Under the pieces are notes generated by a model. The model did not search any database. It saw nothing but the letters and a program-made list of their open reading frames with translations, and had not been told where the DNA came from. The position numbers and the translations under genes were made by a program. Below, one piece after another: positions 3,601-37,761 of a stretch of 64,000 bases of DNA (its first letter is position 1; each line of letters begins with the position of its first letter). The DNA is taken from positions 1-64,000 of the forward strand of contig JACRHH010000001.1 of the NCBI GenBank assembly GCA_016212095.1, in the 5' to 3' direction. This DNA is from Nitrospirota bacterium. Its GTDB lineage: Bacteria; Nitrospirota; Thermodesulfovibrionia; SZUA-242.

Positions 3601-4478
3601 TCGAAGATTTTCTGGACTGCGGCGCGAAAATCAAGGCGCGTGTCAGAATCGAGCGCCGCCCTGCACTGCGCGCCACAATCGACTTCACCGGAACCGATCC
3701 GCAGCTTGCGGGCAATCTGAACGCGCCGCTTGCGGTCACGAAATCGGCGGTGATGTACGTCTTCCGGACGCTGGTGAAACGCGATATCCCTTTAAACGAC
3801 GGCTGCTTGCGCGATATTGAAATTATCGTGCCGGATGGCTGTCTGCTGAATCCCGCGCCCGGCGCGGCTGTTGCCGGAGGAAACGTCGAGACATCGCAGC
3901 GCGTTGTAGATGTGCTTTACGGAGCGCTTGGCGTGGCTGCGGCATCGCAGGGGACGATGAACAATTTTCTGTTTGGCCAAGCTGGCCAAATTGGCGGAAT
4001 TGGCCAAGCTGGCCAAATTGGCCGCCAGTATTACGAAACAATTGGAGGTGGCGCAGGCGCAACAGAAGGTTTCGGCGGCGCGTCTGCCGTGCAGGTTCAC
4101 ATGACGAACACGCGCATTACCGATCCGGAGGTCTTCGAGCACCGCTATCCGGAGGCGCGGATAGAGGAGTTTTCGGTGCGGCGCGGCTCAGGCGGGGCCG
4201 GCCAATACAGGGGCGGCGACGGAATCGTTCGGGCGATCAGGTTCATCGAGCCGCGAACAGTCACGATCCTCTCGGAACGGCGCAGGTTTCGGCCATACGG
4301 AGCGGCGGGCGGCGAGCCAGGGCTTCCAGGCGAAAATTTCTTGGCTAAAGCCGACGGAACCGTGCTGGAACTTGAAGGCCGCGCCACGATTGAGGCGGGC
4401 GCGGGAGACATGGTTGTGATCAAAACACCGGGCGGGGGCGGATTTGGCGAAAAGGAAACGAAGGCGGTCAGGCTGTGA
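564..4478 (+). CDS. 5-oxoprolinase / hydantoinase A+B fusion
   Basis: This is an ATP-dependent cytoplasmic enzyme opening 5-oxoproline or a related hydantoin. HyuA-type and HyuB-type halves are joined as in eukaryotic-type 5-oxoprolinase, and the 1304-residue length fits that family. The HyuA half begins near residue 70 with the ATP-grip sequence [10 protein letters not shown] and has a second DMGGTSTDV loop near residue 345. The HyuB half starts near residue 765 and holds the [17 protein letters not shown] signature near residue 1160. The first 34 residues are a ParE toxin head. Internal starts at 669 and 729 lack a clear ribosome-binding site, while 564 is coupled to the ParD tail by TAATG, so 564 is kept with reserve. 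Two in-frame 27-bp repeats interrupt the protein, one in the A-B linker and one near residue 1140. The exact substrate is not determined. Confidence 0.85.
2776..2828 (+). repeat. Two-copy 27-bp in-frame repeat with palindromic core
   Basis: The 22-bp unit ACGCAATCCC(C/T)GCAAGCAGGG(G/A) occurs at 2776-2797 and 2803-2824, exactly 27 bp apart, so the reading frame is kept ([16 protein letters not shown]). The second unit contains a perfect hairpin, AATCCCTG-CAAG-CAGGGATT. It sits in the linker between the two halves of the oxoprolinase. Confidence 0.85.
3973..4026 (+). repeat. Two-copy 27-bp in-frame repeat in oxoprolinase
   Basis: The 23-bp unit beginning TTGGCCAAGCTGGCC and ending AAATTGGC is present identically at 3973-3995 and 4000-4022, spaced exactly 27 bp. 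It encodes [16 protein letters not shown] between the conserved NNFLFG and [11 protein letters not shown] segments of the HyuB half, where family members normally have only a few residues. Confidence 0.85.
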
Positions 4479-32676: not shown

Positions 32677-35034
32677 ATGGCCTACAAGGTACTTCTAGCG
32701 GACGACAGTATCACAATCCAGAAGGTGGTCGAGCTAATCCTCTCGGAGGAGGATGCGATTGTTGAATCGGTCGGCGACGGCTCCGCCGCCATGAACAGTC
32801 TTGAGAGAAAACGTCCGGACATCGTTCTTGCCGACATAGAAATGCCGCGCATGAACGGATACGAGCTCTGCCGCAAGATCAAGGAACGGCGCGAGACAGG
32901 AGGCATCCCGGTCATACTGCTTGCCGGCGCTTTCGAGTCATTCGATGAGGGTCTTGCCCGTTCCGTCGGCGCCGACGATTTCATTATCAAACCGTTCGAG
33001 ACAAACGACCTGCTGGACAAGATCGAGTATTTCCTTTCCGCAACCGAGGGCGAGGTTTTCACAACAGGCGAAACAGTGTCGTTTGAAGGAGCCGCCGCTA
33101 CGTCCGCGGCAGCCCCATATGCGGTTGCCGATGAAATGCAGCAGCGTGAATGGCTCAGCACCGAACCGGTGGCTGAATTGGCCGTTTCTGAAACCATGGG
33201 TTCGGAAACCATGGACTTCGCGCCTGAATCCGGATCGGCAACACAGGCAACAGCCGGAGACGAACGAACGGACGTTCCAGATCTGGTTTCCGACGGCGAG
33301 GAGTTCGGCGATACCGAGGATCTTTGGGATGCGGAGGAGATACCGTTCTCGGAAGCATTCGAAGCAGGCGCATCCGGCGCATCCGACTGGACAGAAGCTG
33401 TGCCTGCAGGCGCGGCTGAAGCCGATGCCGTTATCGAAGGCATGACCGAGTCTGACGAGGAACTCGACACAATGACCGAAGCCGACACTGAATATGCGGT
33501 GGAGTCTGACGCATACGGCGAGATGGTCGAATCCGACAAAACGTTCGAAATCTCCGCCGTAACCGAGGCTGAAACTGTTTTGGACACTGAGGAAGAGGCG
33601 CAGATGCTGACCGAGGCTGAAGAGGAGGAGGAGGTCGTCCCCCTCGAAGTTTTGGAGGAAGAGGTTGTGGAAATAGCGGAAGCGGTTGAGGCGGAAGAGG
33701 AGATTGCGGAAGCCCTTGCTGTTGAGGCGGAGGCGGAAGAAGAGCCGGTTGTTGCCGTGGCCGAGGCCATCGAGGAGGCTCCGGCAGAGGAAGCGATTCC
33801 GGTTGCGGAAGCGGAGGAAACGGCGGAAGCGGTTGAACTTGAAGAGGCGGAGCTCTCGGTCGAGCAGGCCGAAGCCGAGGTTGCGTTCATGGAGGCCATT
33901 GTCGAAGCTGTCGAGGCCATTGACGAAACCGGGGCGATCGATGCCGAGGTGGTCGCCGTCGAGGAAGATGGCGAGGCCGAGGCGGTTGCGGAAGAACCTG
34001 TTGTTTTTGAAACAGCCGAAACTGATGAAGAAGCCGGAATTGCTGAATCCGTCGAGATCGAGGCCGAACTGGAGAAGCTGGAGGAGGCGATTCTGGAGAA
34101 AGCCGCTGAAATATCTCCGGCATCGGTAGCTGGAGCGCCTGCCGCCATGCCTGCAATGAGCCGCGACGAAATCATGCAATGGGTGCGCGAAGCTGTCAAC
34201 GAGGCGCTTGCCGGATTTGCCGAGGCTGAATCGGCGGAGCAGATAGAGGAAGCGCCTGTTGCTCCAGCGATAACCAGGGATGAAATACTGGCGGCGATGA
34301 ATTTGCCCAAGCGCGATGAAATCATCGCGATGGTGCCTACTCACGACGAAATCATCGCGCTTCTGCCCACCCGCGATGAAATCGTTGCCGGAATAGCAGT
34401 TCCCACCCGCGATGAAATCATCGCCGGGATGGATTTACCGAAACGCGATGAGATCATCGCTATGGTGCCAACCCGCGATGAAATTTTATCAATGGCTCGC
34501 GAGACAATCGCCGCCTCGGTTCCGACGCGAGCGGATGTCGATGCGATGATTCGCGAAACCGTGGCCGAAACCGTAAAGGCGTCCCTTGCCGACTCGCTTC
34601 CGACCGCCTCAGCGATAACCGCAATAGCACGCGAGGAGATAGCCACACGCGTTCCCTCCAAGTCCGAGATCGAGGGGCTGGCGGCAACCGCCATGAACGA
34701 GGTTCGGGCGTTTGGCTGCGAGGCGGTTAACCGCGCAATTGCAGACGATTTTATCGCCGATCTGAAGGCGAAGGCTGAAGGAATTCTTTGGGATATAATT
34801 CCCGAAGCGTCCGAACGGTTGATCAACGAAATCATGAAAGACGCGGTTGCCGCCAAAATCCGCGAAGCAGAGATCATCTCGGAGAGCACGAAGGGCGTCA
34901 TTCAGGGTATAATCAGCACCTCGCTGCCCGGCACAATCAAGGAAAGCGTGGAGAAGGTAACGTGGGAAGTAATCCCGGAAATCGCCAAGAATATCATCGC
35001 CGAGGAGATACGGAAGATCAGGGCCGGAAAATAA
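32677..35034 (+). CDS. Response regulator with long acidic tail and TRDEI repeats
   Basis: A 785-residue protein. Residues 1-118 are a receiver domain with acceptor Asp in IVLADIEMPRMNG and switch Lys in FIIKPF. Residues about 125-500 are almost only Glu, Ala, Val and Asp, a disordered acidic region. Residues about 530-620 hold roughly nine copies of a short repeat (T/K)RDEI(I/L)-x-M-x-x-P. The C-terminus has two copies of an amphipathic unit with the core W-(D/E)-(I/V)-IPE (residues near 705 and 763). Receiver proteins with WE(V)(I/V)PE tails occur in Deltaproteobacteria beside motility or chemotaxis genes, but no such neighbour is present. The gene stands alone with its own promoter. Output function unknown. 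Confidence 0.8.
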   Translation: MAYKVLLADDSITIQKVVELILSEEDAIVESVGDGSAAMNSLERKRPDIVLADIEMPRMNGYELCRKIKERRETGGIPVILLAGAFESFDEGLARSVGADDFIIKPFETNDLLDKIEYFLSATEGEVFTTGETVSFEGAAATSAAAPYAVADEMQQREWLSTEPVAELAVSETMGSETMDFAPESGSATQATAGDERTDVPDLVSDGEEFGDTEDLWDAEEIPFSEAFEAGASGASDWTEAVPAGAAEADAVIEGMTESDEELDTMTEADTEYAVESDAYGEMVESDKTFEISAVTEAETVLDTEEEAQMLTEAEEEEEVVPLEVLEEEVVEIAEAVEAEEEIAEALAVEAEAEEEPVVAVAEAIEEAPAEEAIPVAEAEETAEAVELEEAELSVEQAEAEVAFMEAIVEAVEAIDETGAIDAEVVAVEEDGEAEAVAEEPVVFETAETDEEAGIAESVEIEAELEKLEEAILEKAAEISPASVAGAPAAMPAMSRDEIMQWVREAVNEALAGFAEAESAEQIEEAPVAPAITRDEILAAMNLPKRDEIIAMVPTHDEIIALLPTRDEIVAGIAVPTRDEIIAGMDLPKRDEIIAMVPTRDEILSMARETIAASVPTRADVDAMIRETVAETVKASLADSLPTASAITAIAREEIATRVPSKSEIEGLAATAMNEVRAFGCEAVNRAIADDFIADLKAKAEGILWDIIPEASERLINEIMKDAVAAKIREAEIISESTKGVIQGIISTSLPGTIKESVEKVTWEVIPEIAKNIIAEEIRKIRAGK
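34265..34530 (+). repeat. Tandem TRDEI peptide-repeat region
   Basis: Within the response regulator, units coding for TRDEI, PKRDEIIAMVPTHDEI and PTRDEIVAGIAVPTRDEI recur with spacings of 10 to 14 codons. DNA copies of CGCGATGAAATCATCGC are near-identical, showing recent expansion by duplication. Confidence 0.8.
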
Positions 35035-35130: not shown

Positions 35131-37761
35131 ATGGAAAAGGTTTACAACCCTTCGGGGATCGAAGAGAAGTGGTACGCCCGCTGGCTTGAAGACGGGCTTT
35201 TTTCGGCGGATGACGTTGCACGCGGCAAGCCGCCGTACTCAATAGTCATCCCGCCCCCGAACGTAACCGGCGTTCTGCACATGGGCCATGCCCTGAACAA
35301 CACCCTTCAGGATATTCTTGTCCGCTGGAAACGCATGTCGGGCTATAACGCCATGTGGATGCCGGGCATGGATCACGCCGGAATCGCCACCCAAAACGTG
35401 GTCGAGCGCGAGATAAAGAAGGAAAATCTATCCCGCCACGATCTTGGGCGCGAGAAGTTCGTGGAGCGCGTCTGGAAGTGGAAAGAGCATTCCGGCGGAC
35501 GGATTCTGCACCAGCTCAAGCGGCTGGGCTGTTCGTGCGACTGGGACAGGCAGCGGTTCACGCTGGACGAAGGGCTTTCGGATGCTGTGCGGGAAGTTTT
35601 CGTGCGGCTCTACGAAGACGGACTGATCTATCGCGGCGATTACGTTATCAACTGGTGTCCGCGCTGCCACACCGCGCTAAGCGACATAGAGGTTGAGCAC
35701 GAGGATTTCGCCGGTAATCTCTACCACCTTTCATATCCGCTGAAAGATGGCTCCGGCTCGATAACCGTTGCCACCACGCGGCCCGAAACCATGCTTGGCG
35801 ATACGGCGGTGGCAGTGCATCCCGACGACGAGCGTTACAAAGCCTTTGTCGGCAAAACCCTGATTCTGCCGGTACTTAACCGCGAAATTCCGGTCATCGC
35901 CGACGATCAGGTGGATTCATCGTTCGGAACCGGCGCGGTGAAGGTGACGCCAGCGCACGACTTGAACGATTTTGAGATGGGCCGCCGCCATAACCTGCAC
36001 GCCATTATCGTGATGAAGGAAGACGGCACGATGTCGGCCTATGCCGGGCCATATGCCGGGCAGGATCGCTACGAATGCCGCAAGAATCTTTTGAACGACC
36101 TTGAAACAAGCGGCGTTCTGGTGAAAACCGAGAAGCACGGCATGAGCGTGGGCCACTGCTACCGGTGCAAGACCGTGATCGAGCCGTATCTGTCGAAACA
36201 GTGGTTCGTGCGCATGAAGCCGCTTGCCGAACCGGCCATCGAGGCGGTGAAGTCCGGCAAAATCCGCATTGTGCCCAAAAAATGGGAAACCGACTACCTG
36301 ATCTGGATGGCGAACATCCGCGACTGGTGCATCTCGCGCCAGATATGGTGGGGCCATCGCATTCCGGCATGGCACTGTGAAACCTGCGGCGAGATCAACG
36401 TGGCGCGCACTGCGCCTGAAAGCTGCAAGAAATGCGGCGGCGCGAAGCTGCGGCAGGACGAGGACGTGCTCGACACCTGGTTTTCGTCCGCGCTCTGGCC
36501 GTTTTCAACGCTCGGCTGGCCGCAAGACACTGCGGCATTAAAAACCTTCTATCCAACGTCGGTTCTGGTCACCGGGTTCGACATCCTAACCTTCTGGGTG
36601 GCCCGGATGATCGTTATGGGCCTGAAGTTCATGGACGAGGTTCCGTTCCACGACGTCTACATCCACGCGCTTGTGCGAGACGCGCAGGGGCAGAAGATGT
36701 CGAAATCAAAGGGAAATGTGGTTGATCCTCTCACCATGGCCGACAAGTACGGCACTGACGCGTTCAGGTTCACGCTCACCGCGTTCGCGGCGCAGGGCCG
36801 CGACGTGAAATTCTCGGAAGAGCGCGTCGAGGGCTACCGGAATTTCGCCAACAAGATCTGGAACGCCTCGCGTTTCATCATGATGAACAACGAGGGAAAG
36901 GCCGTTCCGGCTATTGCCGATGCCAGACTCAATCTGATTGACCGCTGGATTTTAAGCCGCCTGAACGCAACCGTTGTCGAGGTGAACGATGCGCTGACGC
37001 AATACCGCTTCAACGACGCGGCGGGGGCGATCTACCAGTTCATATGGAAGGAATTCTGCGACTGGTACATCGAGCTTGCCAAGCCGGTGATGATGCAGGG
37101 GGTTGGAGACGCCGACGCAACACGCGCCACGCTTTCGCATGTGATGGAGACGTCGCTTCGGCTGCTGCATCCGTTCATGCCGTTCATGACCGAGGAGATA
37201 TGGCAGAACCTGCCGCACGAAGGCTCAAGCATAGTTACCGCGCGGTTTCCGCAGCCCGGCGACAACTTGACCGACGCCGACGCCGAGGAGCGCATGGAGC
37301 TTGTGATGGCGGCAACAAACGCGATCCGCACGATAAAGGGCGAGATGAACGTCGCCCCGTCGAAGCGGGTGAACGCGCTCATAAAGGCAGACGGCAAGGC
37401 GCGGCAGACAATTGAAGAAAGCCGCGCCTTGATCGAGGCGCTGGCGCGGGCCGATCTGACGACAGGCCCGGACATCGAAAAACCGCGCGACGCCGCAACC
37501 GAGGTATGCCCGCCGGTTGAGGTTTACGTTCCGCTGGCCGGACTGCTGGATGTTGCAGCCGAAATCGCCCGGATGGACAAAGACCTGAAAAAAATCGAGG
37601 CGGAGCTTGCCGCTATCAACCGGAAACTTGGAAACGAGGATTTCCTCGAACGCGCGCCAGCCGAGGTTGTGGAGAAGGAAAAGGCGCGTTTCAACGAGTC
37701 GAATGAACGCGCCGAAAAGCTGCGTGGCGGCATAGAAAGGCTTCGGGCGTTTGGAGCATGA
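35131..37761 (+). CDS. valS: Valyl-tRNA synthetase
   Basis: An 876-residue class I synthetase that charges tRNA-Val. The HIGH element is PNVTGVLHMGHALNN (near residue 45) and the KMSKS element GQKMSKSKGNVVDP (near residue 523). The CP1 editing domain lies between them (TTRPETMLGDTAVAVHP), and the C-terminal coiled-coil arm binds tRNA. The length is typical of bacterial ValS. The last 11 bp overlap nadC. The tRNA-Val(GAC) gene of this window lies at 51695-51769. Confidence 0.98.
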   Translation: MEKVYNPSGIEEKWYARWLEDGLFSADDVARGKPPYSIVIPPPNVTGVLHMGHALNNTLQDILVRWKRMSGYNAMWMPGMDHAGIATQNVVEREIKKENLSRHDLGREKFVERVWKWKEHSGGRILHQLKRLGCSCDWDRQRFTLDEGLSDAVREVFVRLYEDGLIYRGDYVINWCPRCHTALSDIEVEHEDFAGNLYHLSYPLKDGSGSITVATTRPETMLGDTAVAVHPDDERYKAFVGKTLILPVLNREIPVIADDQVDSSFGTGAVKVTPAHDLNDFEMGRRHNLHAIIVMKEDGTMSAYAGPYAGQDRYECRKNLLNDLETSGVLVKTEKHGMSVGHCYRCKTVIEPYLSKQWFVRMKPLAEPAIEAVKSGKIRIVPKKWETDYLIWMANIRDWCISRQIWWGHRIPAWHCETCGEINVARTAPESCKKCGGAKLRQDEDVLDTWFSSALWPFSTLGWPQDTAALKTFYPTSVLVTGFDILTFWVARMIVMGLKFMDEVPFHDVYIHALVRDAQGQKMSKSKGNVVDPLTMADKYGTDAFRFTLTAFAAQGRDVKFSEERVEGYRNFANKIWNASRFIMMNNEGKAVPAIADARLNLIDRWILSRLNATVVEVNDALTQYRFNDAAGAIYQFIWKEFCDWYIELAKPVMMQGVGDADATRATLSHVMETSLRLLHPFMPFMTEEIWQNLPHEGSSIVTARFPQPGDNLTDADAEERMELVMAATNAIRTIKGEMNVAPSKRVNALIKADGKARQTIEESRALIEALARADLTTGPDIEKPRDAATEVCPPVEVYVPLAGLLDVAAEIARMDKDLKKIEAELAAINRKLGNEDFLERAPAEVVEKEKARFNESNERAEKLRGGIERLRAFGA

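Follow-up and report, generated by a model that had tools for sequence, protein, structure and literature searches.

What kind of protein joins a receiver domain to a long acidic region, an array of short repeats and a Trp-bearing tail? The question is raised by a single ORF of 785 aa, at 32677..35034 on the plus strand of the window, the 64,000-nucleotide stretch of DNA analysed here. Based on the ORF list, a family alignment, and searches of its own genome and of relatives, the product of this romR-like response regulator gene, from a member of the Nitrospirota, is very probably a polarity hub of the RomR type, with a lineage-specific expansion of the linker. RomR helps bacteria to distinguish front from rear. 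In the published description it consists of a receiver, a disordered linker, and a Glu-rich helical region, RomR-C, in which a Trp and a Pro are invariant (PMC3441718). Probable orthology to Myxococcus xanthus RomR (MXAN_4461) is argued from domain architecture, the spacing of tail residues, and partner genes.

The response regulator of the original prediction was confirmed. The receiver domain, residues 5-117 (32689..33027, plus strand), matches Pfam PF00072 with E 9.8e-25, which is the sole Pfam match above the cut-off for the full 785-aa protein, and it is modelled confidently by AlphaFold2 (pLDDT block means >80 throughout). D9, D10, D53, and K105 are all present, so that the acidic pocket and acceptor are intact; D53 is numbered as in M. 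xanthus, and the Asp of the phosphoacceptor site is kept in 107 of 107 family proteins. At a position that is presumably Thr or Ser in most receivers, Ala is found in the window protein and mostly across the family too, therefore it is uncertain from these residues whether this receiver acts as a conventional phospho-switch. Published accounts disagree on whether RomR is phosphorylated (PMC6428892). In three family members (L029, L032, and L033) the receiver pocket has NN instead of DD and the tail Trp is kept; their genomes gave no MglA, MglB, or MglC match, and it is possible, judging from sequence, that these proteins are pseudo-receivers with another partner.

Behind the receiver lies an acidic linker, residues 123-488 (33043..34140, plus strand), of 366 aa with 27% Glu, a net charge of -114, and five K/R in all, which agrees with the acidic region of about 375 residues proposed earlier. 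The description of this region as almost pure Glu/Ala/Val holds for about residues 311-480 (33607..34116, plus strand), where Glu makes up 36% of residues 316-480 and the longest run confined to E, A, V, I, L, and P measures 69 aa (residues 313-381), but not for the remainder. The linker is mostly disordered in the AlphaFold2 model: pLDDT is <50 over nearly all of residues 127-322, and Glu/Ala stretches at 323-350, 379-418, and 454-478 form helices. It is the fast-changing part of the RomR-like family, and for RomR itself the length and composition of the linker are reported to follow taxonomy and not to be conserved between taxa (PMC3441718). A DLWDAE motif (W217; 33319..33336, plus strand) was located from the family alignment, the DLW pattern being present in 45 of 93 complete members; DLW-x-x-[EDV], in an otherwise unconserved linker, is a candidate docking motif. 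Two antisense ORFs on the minus strand, 32682-34325 (547 aa) and 32938-34344 (468 aa), overlie the Glu/Ala region and are probably a codon-phase artefact.

The linker is followed by eight [STK][RH]DEI units, residues 495-613 (34159..34515, plus strand), identified by repeat detection, motif count, and AlphaFold2 helices. The cores start at residues 495, 533, 545, 555, 565, 577, 589, and 599, with spacings of 38, 12, 10, 10, 12, 12, and 10 residues, and degenerate relatives of the core come after them. About nine units had been predicted; eight cores are counted, plus these relatives, and just some fit the unit form that was claimed. From 533 to 596 the units are modelled as six 7-residue helices (534-540, 546-552, 556-562, 566-572, 578-584, and 590-596) with turns between them; P-[ST]-x-x-E is a classical helix-capping arrangement. 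The DNA copies had been called near-identical, which they are not, being 71-82% identical to their reference copies. They are duplicates nonetheless: of 123 matched residue pairs, 79 use the same codon, compared with 52.1 +/- 6.6 expected when synonymous codons are shuffled gene-wide, and since 0 of 2000 shuffles reached the observed value, protein constraint alone does not account for the units. Chance is likewise excluded as the source of the array, because [RKH]DE[ILV] occurs eight times in the window protein and at most twice in any other of the 93 complete family members. The RDEI units arose by tandem duplication of a short capped helix, and an array of this kind is confined to the window genome. 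Elsewhere in the window, a short tandem array at 3974-4023 has a period of 9/18 and the consensus TGGCCAAAC.

Comparisons with two genera of the same family also show differences in this segment. In one of them (G001), the RomR-like protein is 530 aa long and lacks the array; in the other (G002), a 156-nt (52-residue) unit unrelated to RDEI is found in the corresponding place, its last two copies identical at 154 of 156 positions and the third copy at 110 of 156. The G002 assembly breaks at this repeat and the gene is inferred to resume on another contig, adjoining valS. As the three genomes differ, expansion beside the tail has taken place independently in separate genera. Evolving repeat number, as originally predicted, is therefore supported at the level of genera; among the 60 relatives searched, no second genome of the window genus was found.

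The C-terminal part of the protein, residues 662-784 (34660..35028, plus strand), is a RomR-C-like helical tail, supported by the family alignment and by AlphaFold2 helices at 662-738 and 742-784. The full-length model also has a long helix at 618-657 ahead of these, and when modelled alone the tail is almost entirely helix, with a mean pLDDT of 79.2. No relative of the tail was found among solved structures (best E 0.34 and 0.12). Both predicted WxxIPE units are present. The first, E701-x-x-x-W705-DII-P709-EAS-E713 (WDIIPE; 34777..34815, plus strand), matches the spacing of M. xanthus E390, W394, and E402 (PMC12719032), with E, W, P, and E kept, but Gly at -3. The second, E759-K760-x-x-W763-EVI-P767-EIA-K771 (WEVIPE; 34951..34989, plus strand), has E-K-x-x-W as in M. 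xanthus E390, K391, and W394; E, K, W, and P are kept, but Lys stands at +8, the counterpart of E402. When the 76 family tails with Trp were aligned on the last Trp, in rows that include loci duplicating a genome, Glu was found at W-4 in 74 of 76, Lys at W-3 in 65 (Arg in six), Pro at W+4 in 74, and Glu at W+8 in 60, so that E390, K391, W394, and E402 of M. xanthus have counterparts with identical spacing. These four residues, within RomR 371-420, contact the roadblock protein MglC in a published model, and W394A is reported to abolish MglC binding by M. xanthus RomR (PMC12719032). The number of W units varies between the 93 complete members: 24 have no unit, 32 have a single unit, 36 have two, and L094 has four. 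In this last protein, of 407 aa, the C-terminal end carries four tandem W-E-x-V-P units of approximately 14 residues, an amplification of the MglC-docking element.

At E <= 1e-25, the RomR-like gene is present in 27 of 61 genomes (its own and 60 relatives). In named genomes, 80 loci were found, most of them in Nitrospirota and the rest in Desulfuromonadales, Acidobacteria, and others. Of the 98 family proteins, from 98 genomes, 93 were counted complete; some loci, for example L016, L022, and L034, are cut by contig ends, and L027 and L031 are included in the family counts. The complete members range from 272 to 785 aa (median 344), the window protein being the longest. The downstream neighbour is conserved. 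In the window it is valS, for an 876-aa valyl-tRNA synthetase named from its own sequence (35131..37761, plus strand), and a valS start motif lies within 600 nt downstream of the RomR-like gene in 74 of the 80 loci; three of the other six are cut by contig ends. In L094, L105, and L107 the gene has no adjacent valS despite a long enough flank.

The Mgl partners of RomR are encoded in the window genome (G000). An mglB-mglA operon is located at G000:C9, its Ras-like GTPase matching M. xanthus MglA with E 1.6e-92 and its roadblock GAP matching M. xanthus MglB with E 2.5e-40. The roadblock adaptor MglC is divergent (38% identity) and was linked through the MglC of a relative, which it matches with E 1.7e-13 and which in turn matches M. 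xanthus MglC with E 5e-20. The RomR-contacting MglC residues K104 and R106 have invariant counterparts (K102 and R104) in all 10 Nitrospirota MglCs aligned; by eye, the window genome's own MglC has K, K, and R at the K104, R106, and R110 places of the RomR-binding surface. MglA (E <= 1e-90) is found in 15 of the 61 genomes, all of them among the 27 with a RomR-like gene (0 of 34 without), and an MglC-type roadblock protein in 14 of 61, its own genome included. A link to type IV pili was considered through PilM, which is almost universal (59 of 61) and therefore neither discriminates nor points to a specific motility client. Two other MglA-like proteins were noted in the same genome. One, a 232-aa ORF with 41% identity, is on contig C2 at 64132-64665 (minus strand), just past the end of the window, adjoining receiver and histidine-kinase-like genes; the other, with a Pro/Ala-rich tail, is at G000:C34:22583-23152.

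MglC is confined to genomes whose RomR-like tail has the Trp. In the first set of 27 genomes, MglC was present in 14 of 17 with the Trp and in 0 of 10 without it (Fisher 3.4e-5; here and below, Fisher p values ignore kinship). The prediction was then recorded before 69 further genomes were scored, taken from the 80 loci after nine had been dropped as the same genomes as in the 61-genome set; L050 and L088, the sequences of which end before the tail, were excluded from the Trp test. Among these, MglC was found in 42 of the 54 genomes that have Trp (two batches, of 26 of 35 and 16 of 19) and in 0 of the 15 that lack it (Fisher 3.1e-8). Pooled, the 96 genomes give 56 of 71 against 0 of 25 (Fisher 5.4e-13).

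Kinship was addressed with trees built solely from the family found here, with eight rows per tree lacking ValS. The 95-row tree, of receiver plus ValS, has 7 changes of Trp and 14 of MglC; for both trees together the ranges are 7-8 and 13-14, MglC changing more often. Six independent supported pairs differ in Trp, and MglC differs in the same direction in four to five of these and in the opposite direction in none, giving a tree-corrected sign test p of 0.0625-0.125. The 77-row tree agrees with the 95-row tree; the latter was built without L030 (neither Trp nor MglC), which has a very long branch. Among sister genomes, G001 has both Trp and MglC and G002 has neither, G002 keeping MglA with no roadblock match detected; G006 and G003 differ in Trp and MglC together, G003 having neither, and there is a further such contrast between L099/L101 and L100/L112/L113. 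In 15 of 71 genomes the Trp is kept and MglC was not detected. Six of the 15 (L029, L032, L033, L083, L093, and L095) are of the f12 type or branch with it, magnetotactic Nitrospirota being among this branch, and the absence of MglC in L083, L093, and L095 was as predicted. Others of the 15 may be incomplete assemblies.

Could this be a different kind of protein altogether? PopZ combines an acidic disordered linker with C-terminal helices and has no receiver. A PopZ-like organiser of polar condensates unrelated to RomR would share the general plan of a disordered acidic linker and oligomerising C-terminal helices, the tail resembles the PopZ C-terminus by our eye, and DUF2497, which we take to be the PopZ family, was weakly matched by 7 of 17 tails (best E 0.005). 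However, DUF2497 is above the cut-off in 0 of 21 genomes, the window tail itself has no match, and reversed tails (n=5) match unrelated Pfam families as strongly (best E 0.0057), while five shuffled tails gave one Pfam family at E 0.056. A DUF2497 E of 0.005 is therefore background for such helices. The Trp spacing and the co-occurrence with MglC are explained by RomR and not by PopZ, and identity with PopZ, which is very improbable, was rejected. An ordinary response regulator or spacer without a link to MglA, its co-occurrence with the Mgl proteins due to shared ancestry, would account for the 12 of 27 genomes that have the gene and no MglA at E <= 1e-90, and the tree-corrected test misses p 0.05; yet Trp and MglC are repeatedly absent together in sister genomes, no pair runs the opposite way, and the prediction succeeded on 69 further genomes, which makes this reading improbable too.

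A further alternative bears on the array and leaves the protein's identity untouched. Both the RDEI units and the long acidic linker may be neutral by-products of replication slippage in a GC-rich linker under low constraint, with only the receiver and tail mattering. This is a real possibility, falling a little short of an even chance. Not one of the other 92 complete members (of 93) carries the array in its window form, the sister genus carries its unrelated 156-nt repeat in the corresponding place, and RomR linkers are unconserved between taxa as described in PMC3441718. Against this, copies with diverged DNA (71-82%) still keep the frame, the hydrophobic positions, and the capping box P-[ST]-x-x-E-[IL], a similar motif is present as a single copy in 36 of 93 members, and in M. 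xanthus the linker alone is reported to target the pole and to be required for motility (PMC3441718).

On the favoured identification, as a RomR-type hub, most of the mechanism is drawn from Myxococcus, where RomR-C is reported to be needed for oligomerisation and polar localisation and to provide the interface to MglC (PMC10329633). The tail would oligomerise and hold the protein at the pole, and would bind the MglC dimer via its Trp units; MglB would be recruited and MglA placed as in M. xanthus, and the receiver would take an input that flips or tunes polarity. In the window lineage, the linker has grown to 366 acidic residues, and tandem duplication of the capped-helix segment beside the tail has produced eight RDEI units. 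Our best guess is that linker and helix array form an extended multivalent arm spacing the receiver from the oligomeric tail; alternatively, the enlarged arm may add weak docking sites. The scaffold originally suggested was thus right in kind, the protein being RomR-like and RomR a polar scaffold, but it is the tail and not the RDEI units that has a known partner, MglC. A broader reading is doubtful and is offered as speculation: RomR may be an older, MglA-independent polarity hub that persists in part of the Nitrospirota without MglA, MglB, MglC, and the docking Trp, and where the Mgl module was kept the docking helix and linker may have been amplified, so that binding valency would evolve by tandem duplication. 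Examples of such amplification would be the two W units and RDEI array of the window protein, the four units of L094, and the 52-residue array of the sister genus.

The RomR family is already known; the new elements are its enlarged variant, arrays specific to single lineages, and the covariation of Trp with MglC. In the literature searched, no report of a RomR/MglA/MglB/MglC set in Nitrospirota was found, Nitrospirae being named alongside RomR and MglA just for Rup GTPases; in the main text of PMC3441718, Nitrospir* occurs 0 times and Nitrospirota is not among the RomR groups named. Likewise, titles and abstract openings gave no report of the covariation, with earlier remarks possible in McLoon 2016 (MglC). 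These data place a complete polarity set in a little-studied phylum. That Trp and MglC are repeatedly missing together is support from natural variation for the RomR-MglC interface, which in the accounts cited here had been tested in one species, and matched genome pairs, one member having MglC and the other lacking it, allow direct study of an MglA-independent role of RomR.

Compared with M. xanthus RomR, the window protein is alike in the number of its receiver Asp (D53), the disordered linker, the Glu-rich helical tail, the E-K-x-x-W spacing, and the presence of MglA, MglB, and MglC in the genome. It differs in size, the M. xanthus protein being 420 aa with a Pro-rich linker and the window protein 785 aa with an acidic linker of 366 aa, and in the eight-unit RDEI array, the two W units, and the position of the gene upstream of valS. 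Geobacter/Pelobacter and Acidobacteria are among the groups named as having RomR (PMC3441718). The family members L102 and L108 (Desulfuromonadales) and L114 (Acidobacteria), which may not be the proteins listed in that paper, have the architecture of the window protein, WEVVP in the tail, and MglA and MglC in the genome; they are 460-492 aa long and lack the RDEI array. Bdellovibrio bacteriovorus RomR (Bd2761) is similar by description, with a receiver, a conserved C-terminal region, and a role as a polar hub (PMC6428892; PMC11025332).
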